Origin: Thermovirga sp.
Lineage (GTDB): Bacteria > Synergistota > Synergistia > Synergistales > Thermovirgaceae
Direction of reading: 5' to 3'
DNA length: 64,000 nucleotides
Assembly: GCF_017656375.1 (NCBI RefSeq)
Contig: NZ_JACDOB010000002.1
Coordinates: forward strand, 1-64,000
Positions 19,886-26,060 of this stretch are shown here, piece by piece (the stretch's first letter is position 1; every line of letters starts with the position of its first letter). A program made the position numbers and the translations under genes. The notes below the pieces were generated by a model. That model had not been told where the DNA came from, ran no database searches, and worked only from the letters and a program-made list of their open reading frames with translations.

Positions 19886-19902
19886 TCTTTCACATTTTGG
19901 TG

Positions 19903-19908
19903 TATAAT
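19903..19908 (+). promoter_or_regulatory. -10 element of the NuoEF-type operon
   Basis: TATAAT at 19903-19908, 57 bases before the first start codon. No convincing -35 is seen; TTTACG (19877-19882) is too far at 20 bases, which suggests an activator-dependent or regulated promoter. Confidence 0.5.
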
Positions 19909-19965
19909 CTAGAATTGTGTGTTAGAATGCTCACAGCTCTATTACTCCAGGGGGGAGATGTGCGG

Positions 19966-20463
19966 ATGACATGCGTTGTTAATGAATCCACAGCGGGAAT
20001 GCAACAAATTTTGGAAGGGATTATCGAAAAGTACCGGGGGAAACCTGGAAGTACCATAGGAATTTTGTCCGCCATTCAAGAAAAATTCGGTTATCTGCCC
20101 GAAGAAGCTATGGATTATGTTTCCCAGTCGTTAAACATCCCTTCAGCTGAAATTTTCGGTGTAGCATCCTTCTATTCCATGTTCCGATTCAAACCGGAAG
20201 GCAAATACGTAGTAAGGTTGTGCAGAGGAACCGCGTGCCATGTCCAGGGCTCATGGCTAATTGGGGAGCAGCTGCAAAGGCACCTTGGAATTGAAGAAGG
20301 TGGCACCACGGAAGATGGCCTCTTTTCTTTGCACTATGTGGCCTGCCTAGGTTGTTGCAGTCTGGCGCCAGTAATGATGGTAAATGGAACAGTTCACGGC
20401 CGCCTTACGCCAGACAAGGCTGTAGAGGTTTTGGAATCGTACAGACTTGAAGGCAAAGAATAA
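19966..20463 (+). CDS. NuoE-like [2Fe-2S] thioredoxin-fold subunit
   Basis: This 165-residue protein matches the 24-kDa (NuoE/HydC) subunit: a helical N-terminus, then cysteines in L-C-R-G-T-A-C-H-V-Q-G and A-C-L-G-C-C-S-L-A-P that hold a [2Fe-2S] cluster. It works with the NADH-oxidising flavoprotein encoded next. The ATG at 19966 is 9 bases from GGGGGGAG. It forms an operon with two larger subunits (gaps of 17 and 16 bases). In bifurcating complexes this subunit is the C subunit (HydC, StnC). Confidence 0.93.
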   Translation: MTCVVNESTAGMQQILEGIIEKYRGKPGSTIGILSAIQEKFGYLPEEAMDYVSQSLNIPSAEIFGVASFYSMFRFKPEGKYVVRLCRGTACHVQGSWLIGEQLQRHLGIEEGGTTEDGLFSLHYVACLGCCSLAPVMMVNGTVHGRLTPDKAVEVLESYRLEGKE

Positions 20464-20480
20464 AGTAGGAGGACTAAAAA

Positions 20481-22247
20481 ATGACAAAAACAGTCATTAA
20501 AGTAGGAATGGCAAGCTGTGGTATCGCTGCAGGAGCCCGTCCAGTGTATGAATACCTTCAAGAGAAACTGGGCGACAGAGAGGATGTAGAAATAAAGCAG
20601 GTAGGATGCATAGGGTTGTGTTTCAGGGAACCTTTGGTAGAAGTAGAAAAAGATGGTTCAAGAATAATCTACGGAGAAGTTGACATCGAATCTCTTGATA
20701 AAATAATAGAACAACACGTTCTAAAGGGAACTCCCGTCAAAGAAAAGGCTATTATAAGCGATTCTTTTGAAGCTCCTGAGAACAAGACATTAGATAAACA
20801 AGTTCGAATAGTCCTCAGAAACACCGGCATAATTGATCCCACAAAAATTGACGAGTATTTAGAAAGAGAAGGCTATAAAGGGCTCACAAAAGCTTTAGAA
20901 ATGGCCCCAGACGCCGTTATAGATGAAATTCTGGAAAGCGGATTGAGAGGAAGAGGTGGAGCAGGCTTCCCCACTGGTTTGAAATGGAGGTTTGCCCGCA
21001 AGGCAGCTGGCGATGAAAAGTACGTTGTGTGTAATGCTGACGAAGGAGACCCTGGAGCATTCATGGACCGTTCCGTTCTAGAAGGAGATCCTCATTCGGT
21101 CATTGAAGGAATGCTGATCTGCGGTTATGCAATAGGAGCCCAGCACGGAATAATCTACTGCAGAGCCGAGTACCCTCTGGCCATCAAGCACCTCAACATT
21201 GCAATAGAACAAGCCAGGGAAAGAGGTTTCCTCGGCAAGAATATATTAGGTTCTGGGTTCGACTTCGATATTTACATCAAAGAAGGGGCCGGAGCTTTCG
21301 TGTGCGGTGAAGAAACGGCACTCATGGCATCCATCGAAGGCAAAAGAGGTATGCCTAGGCCACGCCCACCATTCCCTGCTAACAAAGGTATCTTTGGCAA
21401 GCCAACAAACATAAACAACGTCGAAACGTTAGCAAATGTAGCATGGATTATTCTTCATGGCGCCTCCGAATTTAACAAGTACGGAACAGGTAAAAGCAGA
21501 GGCACCAAAGTTTTTGCCCTAGCCGGCAAAATTGTAAAAGGCGGTTTGGTCGAAGTCCCCATGGGAATGCCCCTAAGAGAAGTGATCTTTGATGTTGGCG
21601 GAGGAATACCTGGCAGCAAAAAGTTCAAAGCCGTACAGCTAGGAGGGCCTTCAGGGGGGTGTTTGCCAGAATCAGAATTGGACACTCCAGTAGACTACGA
21701 ATCCATTAATGCCACCGGTGCGATCATGGGATCTGGTGGAATGATAGTCATGGACGAGGATACATGTATAGTCGACGTAGCAAAATTTTTCCTAAGTTTC
21801 GTCCAAAATGAATCCTGCGGTAAGTGTCCCTTCTGTCGTATAGGCACGAAAAGAATGCTAGAAATTTTGGAACGCATATGCGACGGTAAAGGAACACCTG
21901 AAGACTTGACCCTACTGGAAGATTTGGCCTATAAAGTCAAAGATGGGTCACTTTGCGGCCTGGGGCAGACCGCTCCGAACCCTGTTTTAACTACTCTAAA
22001 ATATTTCCGCCATGAATATGAGGCTCATGTCAACGACAAGAAATGCCCTGCGAAGGTCTGTACTAATCTTATCCATTACACAATAGATCCAAATACATGT
22101 ATAGGTTGCACAAAGTGTGCAAGGGTTTGCCCTGTAAACGCCATAGAGGGACAGGTCAAACAACCTCATAAGATAGATGACTCTATTTGTGTTCGTTGCG
22201 GGCAATGTAAGTCTGTGTGCCCAGTAAAAGCTATCTCCGTAGAATAA
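20481..22247 (+). CDS. NuoF-like flavoprotein subunit (HydB/StnB type)
   Basis: This 588-residue protein has an N-terminal thioredoxin-like [2Fe-2S] domain (C-I-G-L-C), a central FMN/NADH domain (G-L-R-G-R-G-G-A-G-F-P-T-G, C-N-A-D-E-G-D-P-G-A, G-A-G-A-F-V-C-G-E-E-T-A-L), an N3-type [4Fe-4S] site (E-S-C-G-K-C-P-F-C-R), and two C-terminal ferredoxin clusters (C-I-G-C-T-K-C-A-R-V-C-P and C-V-R-C-G-Q-C-K-S-V-C-P). This is the architecture of HydB-type bifurcating subunits, not of respiratory NuoF, which lacks the C-terminal ferredoxin domain. It is cytosolic, and the electron partner is defined by the next gene. Confidence 0.94.
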   Translation: MTKTVIKVGMASCGIAAGARPVYEYLQEKLGDREDVEIKQVGCIGLCFREPLVEVEKDGSRIIYGEVDIESLDKIIEQHVLKGTPVKEKAIISDSFEAPENKTLDKQVRIVLRNTGIIDPTKIDEYLEREGYKGLTKALEMAPDAVIDEILESGLRGRGGAGFPTGLKWRFARKAAGDEKYVVCNADEGDPGAFMDRSVLEGDPHSVIEGMLICGYAIGAQHGIIYCRAEYPLAIKHLNIAIEQARERGFLGKNILGSGFDFDIYIKEGAGAFVCGEETALMASIEGKRGMPRPRPPFPANKGIFGKPTNINNVETLANVAWIILHGASEFNKYGTGKSRGTKVFALAGKIVKGGLVEVPMGMPLREVIFDVGGGIPGSKKFKAVQLGGPSGGCLPESELDTPVDYESINATGAIMGSGGMIVMDEDTCIVDVAKFFLSFVQNESCGKCPFCRIGTKRMLEILERICDGKGTPEDLTLLEDLAYKVKDGSLCGLGQTAPNPVLTTLKYFRHEYEAHVNDKKCPAKVCTNLIHYTIDPNTCIGCTKCARVCPVNAIEGQVKQPHKIDDSICVRCGQCKSVCPVKAISVE

Positions 22248-22263
22248 GGAGGAACTAGAAACC

Positions 22264-25200
22264 ATGGAACGTACTGTTTCTGTAACCCTAAATGGAAAAT
22301 CAGTAAAGGGATACCCTGGACAAAAGATATTGGACCTGTGTGCGGAAAACGGCATTGAGATACCCACTCTTTGCTATGATAAACATCTTTCGCTATATGG
22401 AGGATGCTCCATTTGTTTAGTGGAAGTAAAAGGTGCAAGAAGCCTAGTTAGAGCGTGCGCCACTCCAATTCAGGAAGGAATGGAAATAGAAACTCACACA
22501 GAACGCGTAAAGGGAGCCAGAAAACTAGCATTGGAATTGCTGCTTTCAGACCACGTAGGAGATTGCCGACCACCATGTCAATTAGCCTGCCCGGCGAGAA
22601 CCGACGTAAAAAGCTACGTCAATCTTGCAGCGGAAGGCAAACATCGCTCAGCCCTGGATGTGCTCCATCAAAATATCCCCATTCCTGCAAGTATAGGACG
22701 AGTCTGCCCTGCCCCATGTCAAGAAAAGTGCAGAAGGCTTTTCGTTGACGAAGAGCCTGTATCAATTAAAGAGATAAAACGCTATATTGGTGATTGGGGA
22801 TTGGCACAAGGCAACCTAGGAGATATTCCTCAAATACAAGAAAATGGGAAATCGGTAGCCATTGTAGGAGGAGGTCCCGCTGGCTTATCTGCAGCATATT
22901 ACCTGCGATTAAAAGGCTATAAAGTGACTATTTTTGAGAAGGAAACAAAATTAGGCGGAATGATGCGATACGGCATTCCAGACTACAGGCTTCCACAGGA
23001 AGTGCTTGAAAAAGAATGTCAGTGGTTACTCGAACACGGCATAGAAGCTAAAACGAACACAGCTTTGGGCAAAGATATTACCCTGGAAGAATTAAGAAGG
23101 CAGTTTGACGCAGTCCTTTTAGCTATGGGATGCTGGAAATCCACCCCAATGCGGGTGCCTGGCGAAGATCTCCCGGGAGTTATAGGTGGTATAGATTTCC
23201 TCTATAAGGTCAACAATAAACAAGAAACTGGCATTGGCAAAGAGGTTGCAATTATCGGTGGCGGCAATACTGCTATGGATGCAGCGAGATGCTCTCTGCG
23301 CGAGGGTGCCGAAAAGGTTTACGTAGTATACCGTAGGACCAGAGAAGAGATGCCCGCTGAGGACGTAGAAATAGAGGAAGCGATGGAAGAAGGAATAGAA
23401 TTCATTTTCCTGGCAGCTCCAACTGCCATAGAAGGCAACGGCAGGGTTGAGTCTATAGTATGCGAGAAAATGGCTCTTGGAGCGCCAGACTCTTCTGGAA
23501 GAAGAAGACCTATCCCCACAGGTGAAACATTCACATTGAAAGTTGATACTGTCATAGCTGCTATAGGACAAAGAATTGACCTATCTTCACTACCTGAAGA
23601 CATTCATGACGGAAAGTGGCTCAAAGCTGATGATCACTTCGCCACGCCGTATGAGGGGGTATTTGTATGCGGCGACCAAAAAACAGGCCCCAAAATAGCC
23701 GCTGAAGCTATAGCTAGCGGCCATTGGGCAGCAGAATCCATTCACCATTATCTTACTGAAGGCATACCCCACAGGCCCTTCGAGTGCGATGTCGTAAGAG
23801 ACGATCTGGGTCCAGAAGATTTCCTTGACGTCGAAAAACAGCCACAGGAAAAACCAATTATTATGGAGCCACAAAAGAGACTCTCTAAACCTTATGAAGA
23901 ATTCAACATGGGCCTTACTGAGGAGCAGGTGAAAATTGACGGCAGCCGATGCATGAAGTGCGGATGCCCAGATATTCACGAATGTAAGTTAAGGGCTTAC
24001 AGCATCGAGTACGAAGCCTCACCCGACGTGTTCCCGAAAGAACTCTATTCAAGGCCAGACCGCCCAGAAGAAGCGAATACATACTACATAAGAAATATGG
24101 ATAAGTGTATCCAGTGTGGCGTCTGTGTCAGGACATGTGAAGAAATAGCTAATTGTCATGCTATTGATTTCCAGAAACGCGGCATCCAAACCTTCGTAGG
24201 CCCAGGCATTGATCGCACAATAGAACACTCTGATTGCATCTTCTGTGGTCTATGCGTGCAAAACTGCCCCACAGGGGCTTTAGTTGAAAGGACAGCTCAC
24301 GGCATCTCCAGGCCTTCTACAACAAAACTTGCCAAGACTATATGCACTTACTGTAGCGTAGGCTGCGAGCTCGTAACCCATACGGATCTTTTGACCGGCA
24401 AAATAAATAACGTGACCTCTGATCTTGATAGACAAGGCTCCATCAACAAAGGAAAGATATGTGCAAAAGGGCGGTTCGACTGGCAATTTGTCAACAGCCC
24501 TGACAGGTTAAAAACGCCTCTTATCAGAAAGAACGGAAGCTTACAAGAGGCATCCTGGACAGAGGCGTTGGAGTTCATATCCAAAAAGCTTACGGCACTC
24601 AAAGAACAAAGTGGGCCTGATGCCATTGCCTTCTGTGCCTCAAATCATTGCACAAACGAAGAAAATTATTTGCTCCAGCGCTTTGCCAGAGAAGTCATAG
24701 GTACCAATAACGTTGACGTTGTAGACAGTATCTACTACACTCCGGTTCTCAAGGGACTTAAAGAAACTGTAGGTGTCTCCGCCACAACTAGCGACTTTGA
24801 TTCCTTCAAGAGCGCTGACGTGCTGTTGCTGATTGGCGCTAACCCCACAGATACCCACCCAGTTGTGGACATGTGGATCAAAGAGCACAAAAAAACAAGC
24901 TCCATGAAACTTATAACCTGCAACTCTACTCCGACAGGATTGGACAGGTTTGCCGATATTACAGTACAACATAATAAAGGTACTGATGTAGCTCTGCTAA
25001 ATGGATTAATGCACATCATAGTAAAAGAAAACCTTCACAACAGTGAATATATAGAAAACAATGTAGAGAACTTTAGGGAATTGAAAAAGGTGCTCTCTGA
25101 CTACTCACCTGCAAAAGTAGCAGCTATTACCGGAATTCCAGAAAACACACTAAGAGAAGTGGCCAAAACTTTTGCATGTGGTCCTAATTCCACCATAATG

Positions 25201-25995
25201 TTCGGCGATTATCTCTTACAACTCAAGGATGCCGAAAGCGGAGTGAAAGCAATATCCAACCTAGCATTGCTCTGCGGCATGTTAGGAAGGGCAGGAACAG
25301 GCATTTACCCATTAGCAAAGGCGAGCAACACTATAGGGGCCTTTGATATGGGCTGTTTGCCTGATTTCTTGCCAGGCTATTTACCAGTTTGCAACGACGC
25401 CGAAACTACACGCAGGAAAGTAGAAGGAATATGGAACTCTTCCATACCAACCAATGCCGGCTACAATATATCTGAAATGGTAGAAAAAGCCGCAAAAGGC
25501 CAGCTAAAGGCCATGTATGTTATGGGCTCCAACATAGCAAAGAAGCTATCCTGCAAAGAAGCTCTCTCCAACTTGGAGTTGCTTGTGGTACAAGATATAT
25601 TCCTTAACGAAACAGCGCAAATGGCCGATGTAGTGTTGCCTGCAGCATGCTGGGGTGAAAAAGATGGAACAATAACAAATAATTGCAGAGTTGTTCAAAA
25701 AACATCACAAGCTGTCAATCCACCGCAAGACGCAAAACCGGACTGGTGGATATTGACCCAATTAGCTGAAGCTTGTGGCCATTCATGGCCATTTGAAAGC
25801 CCAGAATCTATCATGGACGAAATAAGCCGTTTTGCAGATATTTATGGAGGAATAACTTACGACAGATTGGAATCTAAAGGTATCGCATGGCCATGTTGGA
25901 ACAGGCAACATGAAGGAACGCCTATACTTTTCGCTGATGGCTTCTCCGGCAGGAAAGCGCACTTTGCTCCTTGCGAATGGAAACAAACTGAATAA
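22264..25995 (+). CDS. Fusion of 2Fe-2S, GltD/NfnB-like flavoprotein, ferredoxin and FdhA-like domains (Stn-type transhydrogenase candidate)
   Basis: This 1243-residue protein has four parts: an N-terminal [2Fe-2S] domain (C37, C48, C51, C65); a GltD/NfnB-like NAD(P)H-FAD domain (about 100-500) with I-V-G-G-G-P-A-G-L-S-A and I-I-G-G-G-N-T-A-M-D-A; ferredoxin clusters (about 560-680, C-I-Q-C-G-V-C and C-I-F-C-G-L-C); and an FdhA-like domain from about 690 with C-T-Y-C-S-V-G-C. Where formate dehydrogenases have Sec/Cys-His, this protein has Y824-Y825. It ends where the cofactor-binding C-terminal domain would begin. Formate oxidation is therefore unlikely. Together with the NuoE/F partners it resembles the Sporomusa-type Nfn (Stn) NADH/NADPH/ferredoxin transhydrogenase, as I recall it. 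Databases may label it a formate dehydrogenase or glutamate synthase. Confidence 0.85.
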   Translation: MERTVSVTLNGKSVKGYPGQKILDLCAENGIEIPTLCYDKHLSLYGGCSICLVEVKGARSLVRACATPIQEGMEIETHTERVKGARKLALELLLSDHVGDCRPPCQLACPARTDVKSYVNLAAEGKHRSALDVLHQNIPIPASIGRVCPAPCQEKCRRLFVDEEPVSIKEIKRYIGDWGLAQGNLGDIPQIQENGKSVAIVGGGPAGLSAAYYLRLKGYKVTIFEKETKLGGMMRYGIPDYRLPQEVLEKECQWLLEHGIEAKTNTALGKDITLEELRRQFDAVLLAMGCWKSTPMRVPGEDLPGVIGGIDFLYKVNNKQETGIGKEVAIIGGGNTAMDAARCSLREGAEKVYVVYRRTREEMPAEDVEIEEAMEEGIEFIFLAAPTAIEGNGRVESIVCEKMALGAPDSSGRRRPIPTGETFTLKVDTVIAAIGQRIDLSSLPEDIHDGKWLKADDHFATPYEGVFVCGDQKTGPKIAAEAIASGHWAAESIHHYLTEGIPHRPFECDVVRDDLGPEDFLDVEKQPQEKPIIMEPQKRLSKPYEEFNMGLTEEQVKIDGSRCMKCGCPDIHECKLRAYSIEYEASPDVFPKELYSRPDRPEEANTYYIRNMDKCIQCGVCVRTCEEIANCHAIDFQKRGIQTFVGPGIDRTIEHSDCIFCGLCVQNCPTGALVERTAHGISRPSTTKLAKTICTYCSVGCELVTHTDLLTGKINNVTSDLDRQGSINKGKICAKGRFDWQFVNSPDRLKTPLIRKNGSLQEASWTEALEFISKKLTALKEQSGPDAIAFCASNHCTNEENYLLQRFAREVIGTNNVDVVDSIYYTPVLKGLKETVGVSATTSDFDSFKSADVLLLIGANPTDTHPVVDMWIKEHKKTSSMKLITCNSTPTGLDRFADITVQHNKGTDVALLNGLMHIIVKENLHNSEYIENNVENFRELKKVLSDYSPAKVAAITGIPENTLREVAKTFACGPNSTIMFGDYLLQLKDAESGVKAISNLALLCGMLGRAGTGIYPLAKASNTIGAFDMGCLPDFLPGYLPVCNDAETTRRKVEGIWNSSIPTNAGYNISEMVEKAAKGQLKAMYVMGSNIAKKLSCKEALSNLELLVVQDIFLNETAQMADVVLPAACWGEKDGTITNNCRVVQKTSQAVNPPQDAKPDWWILTQLAEACGHSWPFESPESIMDEISRFADIYGGITYDRLESKGIAWPCWNRQHEGTPILFADGFSGRKAHFAPCEWKQTE

Positions 25996-26015: not shown

Positions 26016-26060
26016 AACAAGAGACGGAGGGCCGGAAATTCCAGCCCTCCGTCTCTTGTT
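26016..26060. terminator. Strong bidirectional terminator between the convergent operons
   Basis: A perfect 17-bp inverted repeat (26016-26032 and 26044-26060) with an 11-base loop, between the end of the NuoEF-type operon and the convergent EF-G gene. Tails are only moderately T-rich. Confidence 0.8.

Follow-up and report, generated by a model that had tools for sequence, protein, structure and literature searches.

How did the inactive FdhF-like branch of Stn transhydrogenases arise? We know of no intermediate that would document this process, and the branch itself has been termed a nonfunctional evolutionary remnant. The question is raised anew by an operon (19966-25995) within a 64,000-nucleotide stretch of Thermovirga sp.—positions 1 to 64,000 of contig NZ_JACDOB010000002.1, in the following called the window—whose last gene (22264..25995) encodes a protein of 1243 residues with a C-terminal part resembling FdhA, the alpha subunit of formate dehydrogenase (FDH). 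All features lie on the + strand unless stated otherwise. The whole is best explained by a Stn transhydrogenase whose FdhA domain was inactivated from an ancestor still intact within the family Thermovirgaceae, and we hold this explanation to be highly probable. The Stn role of the protein is already known ground: Table 1 of Kremp et al. 2020 (PMC7483475) names a 1,241-aa protein of Thermovirga lienii DSM 17291, Tlie_1249, among the potential StnCs. New is the history of the FdhA domain, with its intact syntenic orthologs in sister genera.

The initial annotation, made from the sequence, had described one chain that joins [2Fe-2S], GltD/NfnB-like, ferredoxin, and FdhA-like domains, and both the open frame and the Pfam matches agree with it. 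Residues 1-100 (22264..22563) form the N-terminal [2Fe-2S] domain (Fer2_4, 3-79), followed by a GltD/NfnB-like FAD-NADPH domain at residues 101-570 (22564..23973; Fer4_20, 101-182; Pyr_redox_2, 197-486), ferredoxin-like clusters at residues 571-684 (23974..24315; Fer4, ~611-673), and the FdhA-like domain at residues 685-1243 (24316..25992; Molybdop_Fe4S4, 688-745; Molybdopterin, 748-1169). The fourth domain of FDHs—the molybdopterin-dinucleotide-binding C-terminal domain—has no Pfam match in this chain. The same early end is seen with TIGR01591, the FDH alpha model of 672 positions with a curated cutoff of 666 bits: the window protein reaches 550 bits, below the cutoff, and covers only model positions 1-552, while an intact relative scores 830.6 bits over positions 1-672.

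A residue-by-residue alignment to Escherichia coli FdhF gives the correspondences in the active site. Selenocysteine (Sec) 140 and His141 of FdhF fall on Y824-Y825 (24733..24738), the very pair that had been pointed out beforehand, and Arg333 and Gln335 are replaced by A1018 and A1020, within a segment AKASNTI (residues 1018-1024, 25315..25335) where the active site has RGQNNVQ. A cysteine elsewhere in the ligand position had been named as the observation that would speak against a dead site; the alignment puts none there, and a relocated ligand was rejected, as the nearest cysteines (791, 796, and 886) all lie off the ligand column. The RGQNNVQ segment, the TMGITQH segment, the ENPMVSDP loop, and the fourth domain are lost together. 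Retained are C8, C11, C15, C42, and K44 of FdhF as C694, C697, C701, C733, and K735, and with them the C-x2-C-x3-C...C [4Fe-4S] motif (residues 694-733, 24343..24462). Identity of this part is 33-37% to true FDHs and 50-54% to intact homologs. The formate site is lost at several independent places, and the domain is best read as a noncatalytic structural remnant, as the initial annotation had suggested. Its warning that a label as formate dehydrogenase would be wrong likewise holds, given the missing ligand, active-site Arg/Gln, and fourth domain, and the score under the cutoff.

The relatives of the protein show what has been lost. An ortholog is present in 10/10 genomes of the family; hence, the 1243-residue chain is not a chance product. 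Two of these ten genomes—that of the window and a second one of the same genus, G005—make up genus 1, and both lack the C-terminal domain. The other eight are active-type relatives from other genera, with a syntenic ortholog of ~1370 aa and a complete FDH domain. At residue 824, seven of them read N-V/I-D-H-C-A-H-L-UGA-His and one reads NIDHCARL-Cys-His—that is, UGA-His or Cys-His in all eight sister genomes—and the relatives that are readable through the active-site region possess the fourth domain and the segment RGQNNVQGA, or RGHNNVQGA in the case of the Cys form. The in-frame UGA at the ligand codon is followed by a hairpin that the relatives conserve and the window has lost; SelB is present in 10/10 family genomes. 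Loss of the Sec machinery as the cause of inactivation was thereby ruled out. The window, Acetomicrobium, and a fused relative (L013) share the gene order Pgi-Grx-stnABC (NuoE-HydB-large subunit)-EF-G-GatB-GatA, which makes these genes orthologs at one locus. That the fourth domain is present but masked by a frameshift or an assembly error could also be ruled out: the stop codon is followed by a terminator hairpin and EF-G, and the protein of G005 ends at the same place.

In sister-genus orthologs with the UGA at residue 824 (L092, L093, L094, L096, and L097, among others), naive gene calling would cut the protein at this codon (open frames of 824-853 aa). Proteins like that of the window should hence not be annotated as formate dehydrogenase, nor should those of the relatives be truncated at residue 824.

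How old is the inactivation, and is the domain still under selection? G005 and the window share 93% identity in the N-terminal part and 75% in the FdhA part; the two also have the Tyr-Tyr pair and the truncation in common. Across 28 intact FdhA domains, 240 positions are conserved, and any intact sequence differs at 0-17 of them; the window is changed at 75 and G005 at 79. The changes fall on common positions in 67 cases, and therefore most of the decay predates the split of the two species. The ratio of nonsynonymous differences (pN) between the FdhA part and the rest of the chain is 3.5 in the relic pair—window and G005—and 0.9-1.6 in intact pairs. Within the FdhA part of the relic pair, pN is 0.14 and thus five-fold lower than the synonymous differences (pS) of 0.74, the latter being near saturation. 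Hence, the domain is relaxed yet under purifying selection. In a tree of FdhA domains, the branch to the two relics has a length of 1.06 changes/site versus 0.02-0.4 for intact end branches, and in a tree of N-terminal parts it has 0.14 changes/site; the relic falls inside the active clade of the family. No second close FdhA was found in either genus-1 genome. The domain of the window is probably the product of a second, recent inactivation of an FDH in the same type of enzyme.

The other two genes of the operon define the type of complex. NuoE- and HydB-type NuoF partners had been recognized in the same operon, and both are confirmed, at 19897-20463 and 20481-22247. The small subunit is a StnA/HydC/NuoE-like [2Fe-2S] protein of thioredoxin fold (PF01257, 175 bits), whose frame opens at a TTG at 19897 and whose likely start is the ATG at 19966 with its ribosome-binding site (19966..20463). 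Its top PDB matches are 9n5u_C, 7t2r_C, 9bov_C, and 8oh5_A—C subunits of Nfn-Bfu and NiFe-Bfu complexes—with the NiFe-Bfu protein scoring about equal to the Nfn-Bfu/Stn matches. The second gene (20481..22247; Complex1_51K, NADH_4Fe-4S, and Fer4 domains) encodes a StnB/HydB-type NuoF subunit with an FMN/NADH site and two extra C-terminal 4Fe-4S clusters, the putative bifurcating core; it matches 9n5u_B, 8oh5_B, and 9bov_B over the full length with E about 1e-250. Best matches of all three subunits are found among Nfn-Bfu/Stn structures (8oh5, Sporomusa ovata StnABC; 9bov, Caldicellulosiruptor saccharolyticus NfnABC; 9n5u). The large-subunit layout of 2Fe-2S, GltD-like FAD-NADPH, ferredoxin, and NuoG/FdhF-like parts corresponds to that of these complexes as well; its counterpart in Sporomusa is StnC and not StnA, which the initial annotation had named. 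In S. ovata StnC, K170 and R239 are residues of the FAD/NADPH site that were shown to matter, and both are kept as K172 and R242. By sequence, the cofactor ligands of the path from NADPH to FMN and the HydB core are complete. The operon is therefore best explained as a StnABC (Nfn-Bfu)-type electron-bifurcating transhydrogenase, and the coupling of NADH, NADPH, and ferredoxin proposed earlier is the reading best supported by the structural matches and by K172/R242, by analogy with Stn.

In such a complex, NADPH would reduce the FAD in the GltD domain of the large subunit, and electrons would pass via its Fe-S chain to the FMN of the HydB-type subunit, which would split them between NAD+ and ferredoxin; the reverse direction would make NADPH. 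The FdhA-like domain would go back to an FDH domain that the common ancestor of the family still had in intact form; the metal ligand, the active-site Arg/Gln, and the fourth domain would have been lost prior to the separation of the two Thermovirga-type species. As a relic, it might persist as a folded structural module with one dead-end [4Fe-4S] cluster. It probably contributes to assembly, by analogy with S. ovata StnC, which builds the Stn tetramer via its FdhF-like and N-terminal domains. In metagenome-assembled genomes (MAGs) of Oscillospiraceae and Clostridia (L023, L031, L039, and others), there are StnC-type proteins of only ~680 aa whose chain does not extend past the ferredoxin clusters, and others reach about 800-920 aa; together they form a graded series in the loss of the domain. 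The domain is therefore dispensable to some relatives, as the ~680-aa proteins of Oscillospiraceae lack it.

The bound cofactors, the reaction, its direction, and the structural role would be those of Stn, from which we infer the coupling of NADPH, NAD+, and ferredoxin. Several observations weigh against this explanation. C114 of StnC is a valine in the window protein. In an AlphaFold model, residues 685-1243 take the FDH fold, with 570 columns superposing on E. coli FdhH at 1.9 Å and with FDHs as top structural matches, but the input alignment contained active FDHs and biases the model toward this fold. Most of the active relatives are MAGs, and the reading of their UGA as Sec is suggested by its position, the hairpin, SelB, and the Cys homolog. 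For FdhD, the count is 0/2 genus-1 genomes versus 5/8 of the others, which is only suggestive in incomplete MAGs; its absence lends weak support, as it is also missing in 3/8 active relatives. Finally, the genome of the window keeps MobA-like genes—present in 9/10 genomes, including genus 1, so that a loss of cofactor synthesis is unsupported—and a 628-aa protein of the molybdopterin family. The pterin cofactor may thus still be made or needed in this genome, though the FDH is dead.

These last points touch on the idea that the domain has kept a Mo/W pterin, bound either via Tyr or without a protein ligand, and catalyzes another reaction. Arsenite oxidase has no protein ligand to its metal and offers a precedent; fold and proximal cluster are retained, the domain is under purifying selection, and another molybdopterin protein and MobA-like genes are at hand. 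Against this stand the joint loss of the fourth domain and of the three segments named above, the scatter of changes at otherwise invariant sites over the whole domain, and the catalytic inactivity of this domain in close homologs of known structure, which make the idea very improbable. The reading as an active formate dehydrogenase, which some annotations would give, can draw on the identity to true FDHs and on the top structural matches; with ligand, Arg/Gln, and fourth domain absent, a score below the curated cutoff, and no formate oxidation by S. ovata Stn, we regard it as next to impossible.

More weight has to be given to the origin of the domain. It could be the same ancient NuoG/FdhF-like remnant that Sporomusa StnC carries, inherited vertically and merely less eroded here, with the domains of the other Synergistota lineages eroded further in parallel and no new FDH in the ancestor of the family. 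The common architecture of StnC in all lineages and the syntenic operon in Acetomicrobium fit this account, and fast evolution of eroded domains could mask kinship. The StnC-type N-terminal part occurs in 56/188 Synergistota genomes, where the frames outside the family are mostly 960-1155 aa long and bear eroded domains; no in-frame UGA outside the family was reported in this search of 188 genomes. The eroded domains share 29-41% mean mutual identity, their N-terminal parts about 65-72% between lineages. The intact fused domain, on the contrary, shares 67% identity with the stand-alone Sec-FdhA found in other Synergistota families and only 19-27% with the eroded StnC domains, which in turn are no nearer to the family FdhA than to the stand-alone FdhA. 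A tree mixing StnC remnants and FdhA gave branches of 3-8 changes/site and was not used to place the remnants; the identities and a tree without remnants were used instead. In the latter—with few outgroup FdhAs and no anaerobic Bacillota FdhA—the fused domains form one clade (99/99) nested within the Synergistota FdhA radiation. Toward the C-terminus, resemblance to StnC gives way to resemblance to FdhA somewhere within residues 605-680, and the tree of N-terminal parts places the family among lineages that all bear remnants. We therefore consider vertical inheritance of the ancient remnant rather unlikely; the remnant of the window is probably separate from, and more recent than, that of Sporomusa StnC. 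Somewhat favored is an exchange: the ancestor of the family would have swapped its eroded domain for a working Sec-FDH—giving an NADPH/formate/NAD+/ferredoxin complex that would survive in the sister genera—and the Thermovirga lineage would have inactivated it again. A dead FDH domain would then have arisen at least twice, because it would serve as a scaffold even without catalysis. The stand-alone FdhA of Synergistota (~900 aa) is preceded by a separate HydB with a ferredoxin tail, and in the simplest reading the exchange would merge two bifurcating complexes into one.

One chromosomal position presents three states among its orthologs: an intact Sec/Cys FDH, a recently inactivated FDH, and a long-eroded domain. 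From the first of these, a so far undescribed bifurcating enzyme is predicted that would act on four substrates and could use formate as well. No intact FDH fusion outside the family appeared in a pattern-limited scan of 84,980 species genomes, and other long Synergistota frames that were considered as fusions (1546 aa, f5) are FdhA read into a FocA-like neighbor. G005 would be T. lienii, judging from its 1,241-aa ortholog that matches the listed Tlie_1249. A cultured species would thus bear the recently dead state, making formate loss and transhydrogenase retention directly testable.

The window complex can be compared with several described systems. StnABC of S. ovata (PDB 8oh5/8oh9; PMC7483475, PMC10482914) has the same three subunit types, large-subunit domain order, HydB-type core, FAD-site residues, and an inactive FdhF-like domain. 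Its Stn was assayed for formate oxidation by Kremp et al. 2020, and none was reported there (PMC7483475). The C-terminal domain of S. ovata StnC is far more eroded, whereas that of the window remains near true FdhA in its TIGR01591 score; the latter was probably acquired and inactivated separately. Tlie_1249 is, via G005, the same gene as that of the window, and its listing in Kremp et al. 2020 gives it only as a homolog, without discussing the nature of its FdhA domain. The Nfn-Bfu (type 1 Bfu) of Thermococcus sibiricus and NfnABC of C. saccharolyticus (9bov) represent the complex type and reaction assigned here; 9n5u, which fits T. sibiricus Nfn-Bfu by name and length, and 9bov contribute B subunits to the best matches of the window HydB. 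The large subunit of 9n5u has 963 aa, and the FdhA-like part of 9n5u/9bov-type proteins is eroded further than in the window. Fdh-Bfu or HylCBA-FdhF2-type complexes (Clostridium acidurici) combine a HydB-type core with FDH, comparable to the stand-alone Synergistota FdhA behind HydB; they bear an intact FDH and no GltD/NADPH domain, whereas in the window the NADPH domain is present and the FDH is dead. In the NADP-dependent Fdh3 of Thermococcus onnurineus (PMC8965080), FDH is paired with an NfnB-like NADPH subunit—a pairing that the intact relatives would realize in one chain—but the subunits are separate, the FDH is an active Cys form, and a HydB-type NAD/ferredoxin core is absent from the enzyme as purified, which has four subunits.

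Further redox proteins were seen alongside in the genome of the window (G000). The 628-aa protein (G000:C1:235107-236438, L009 583..2469, − strand) weakly matches models of FDH, nitrate reductase, and thiosulfate reductase. A second, differently built NADPH-linked complex of Bfu type is indicated by sequence on G000:C55 (L006 3..3558, − strand), where a HydB-like protein carries a GltD-like FAD-NADPH domain in place of the C-terminal ferredoxin part and is followed by a 583-aa NuoG-like protein. On G000:C12 (L003), HydB and a 690-aa NuoG-like subunit resembling the A subunit of NiFe-Bfu hydrogenase point to a further bifurcating complex. Entries named as Enterococcus and Staphylococcus phages (OR846614.1, L160; OR844994.1) contain bacterial-type FDH alpha genes and are probably mislabeled host DNA.

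Within the window, the three operon genes are spaced 16-17 bp apart and have good ribosome-binding sites. The operon is closed by a strong terminator-like hairpin (26016..26060, −37 kcal/mol), beyond which EF-G lies on the opposite strand. A transfer-messenger RNA gene is found at 607-960 on the − strand, with the tag ANENYALAA.

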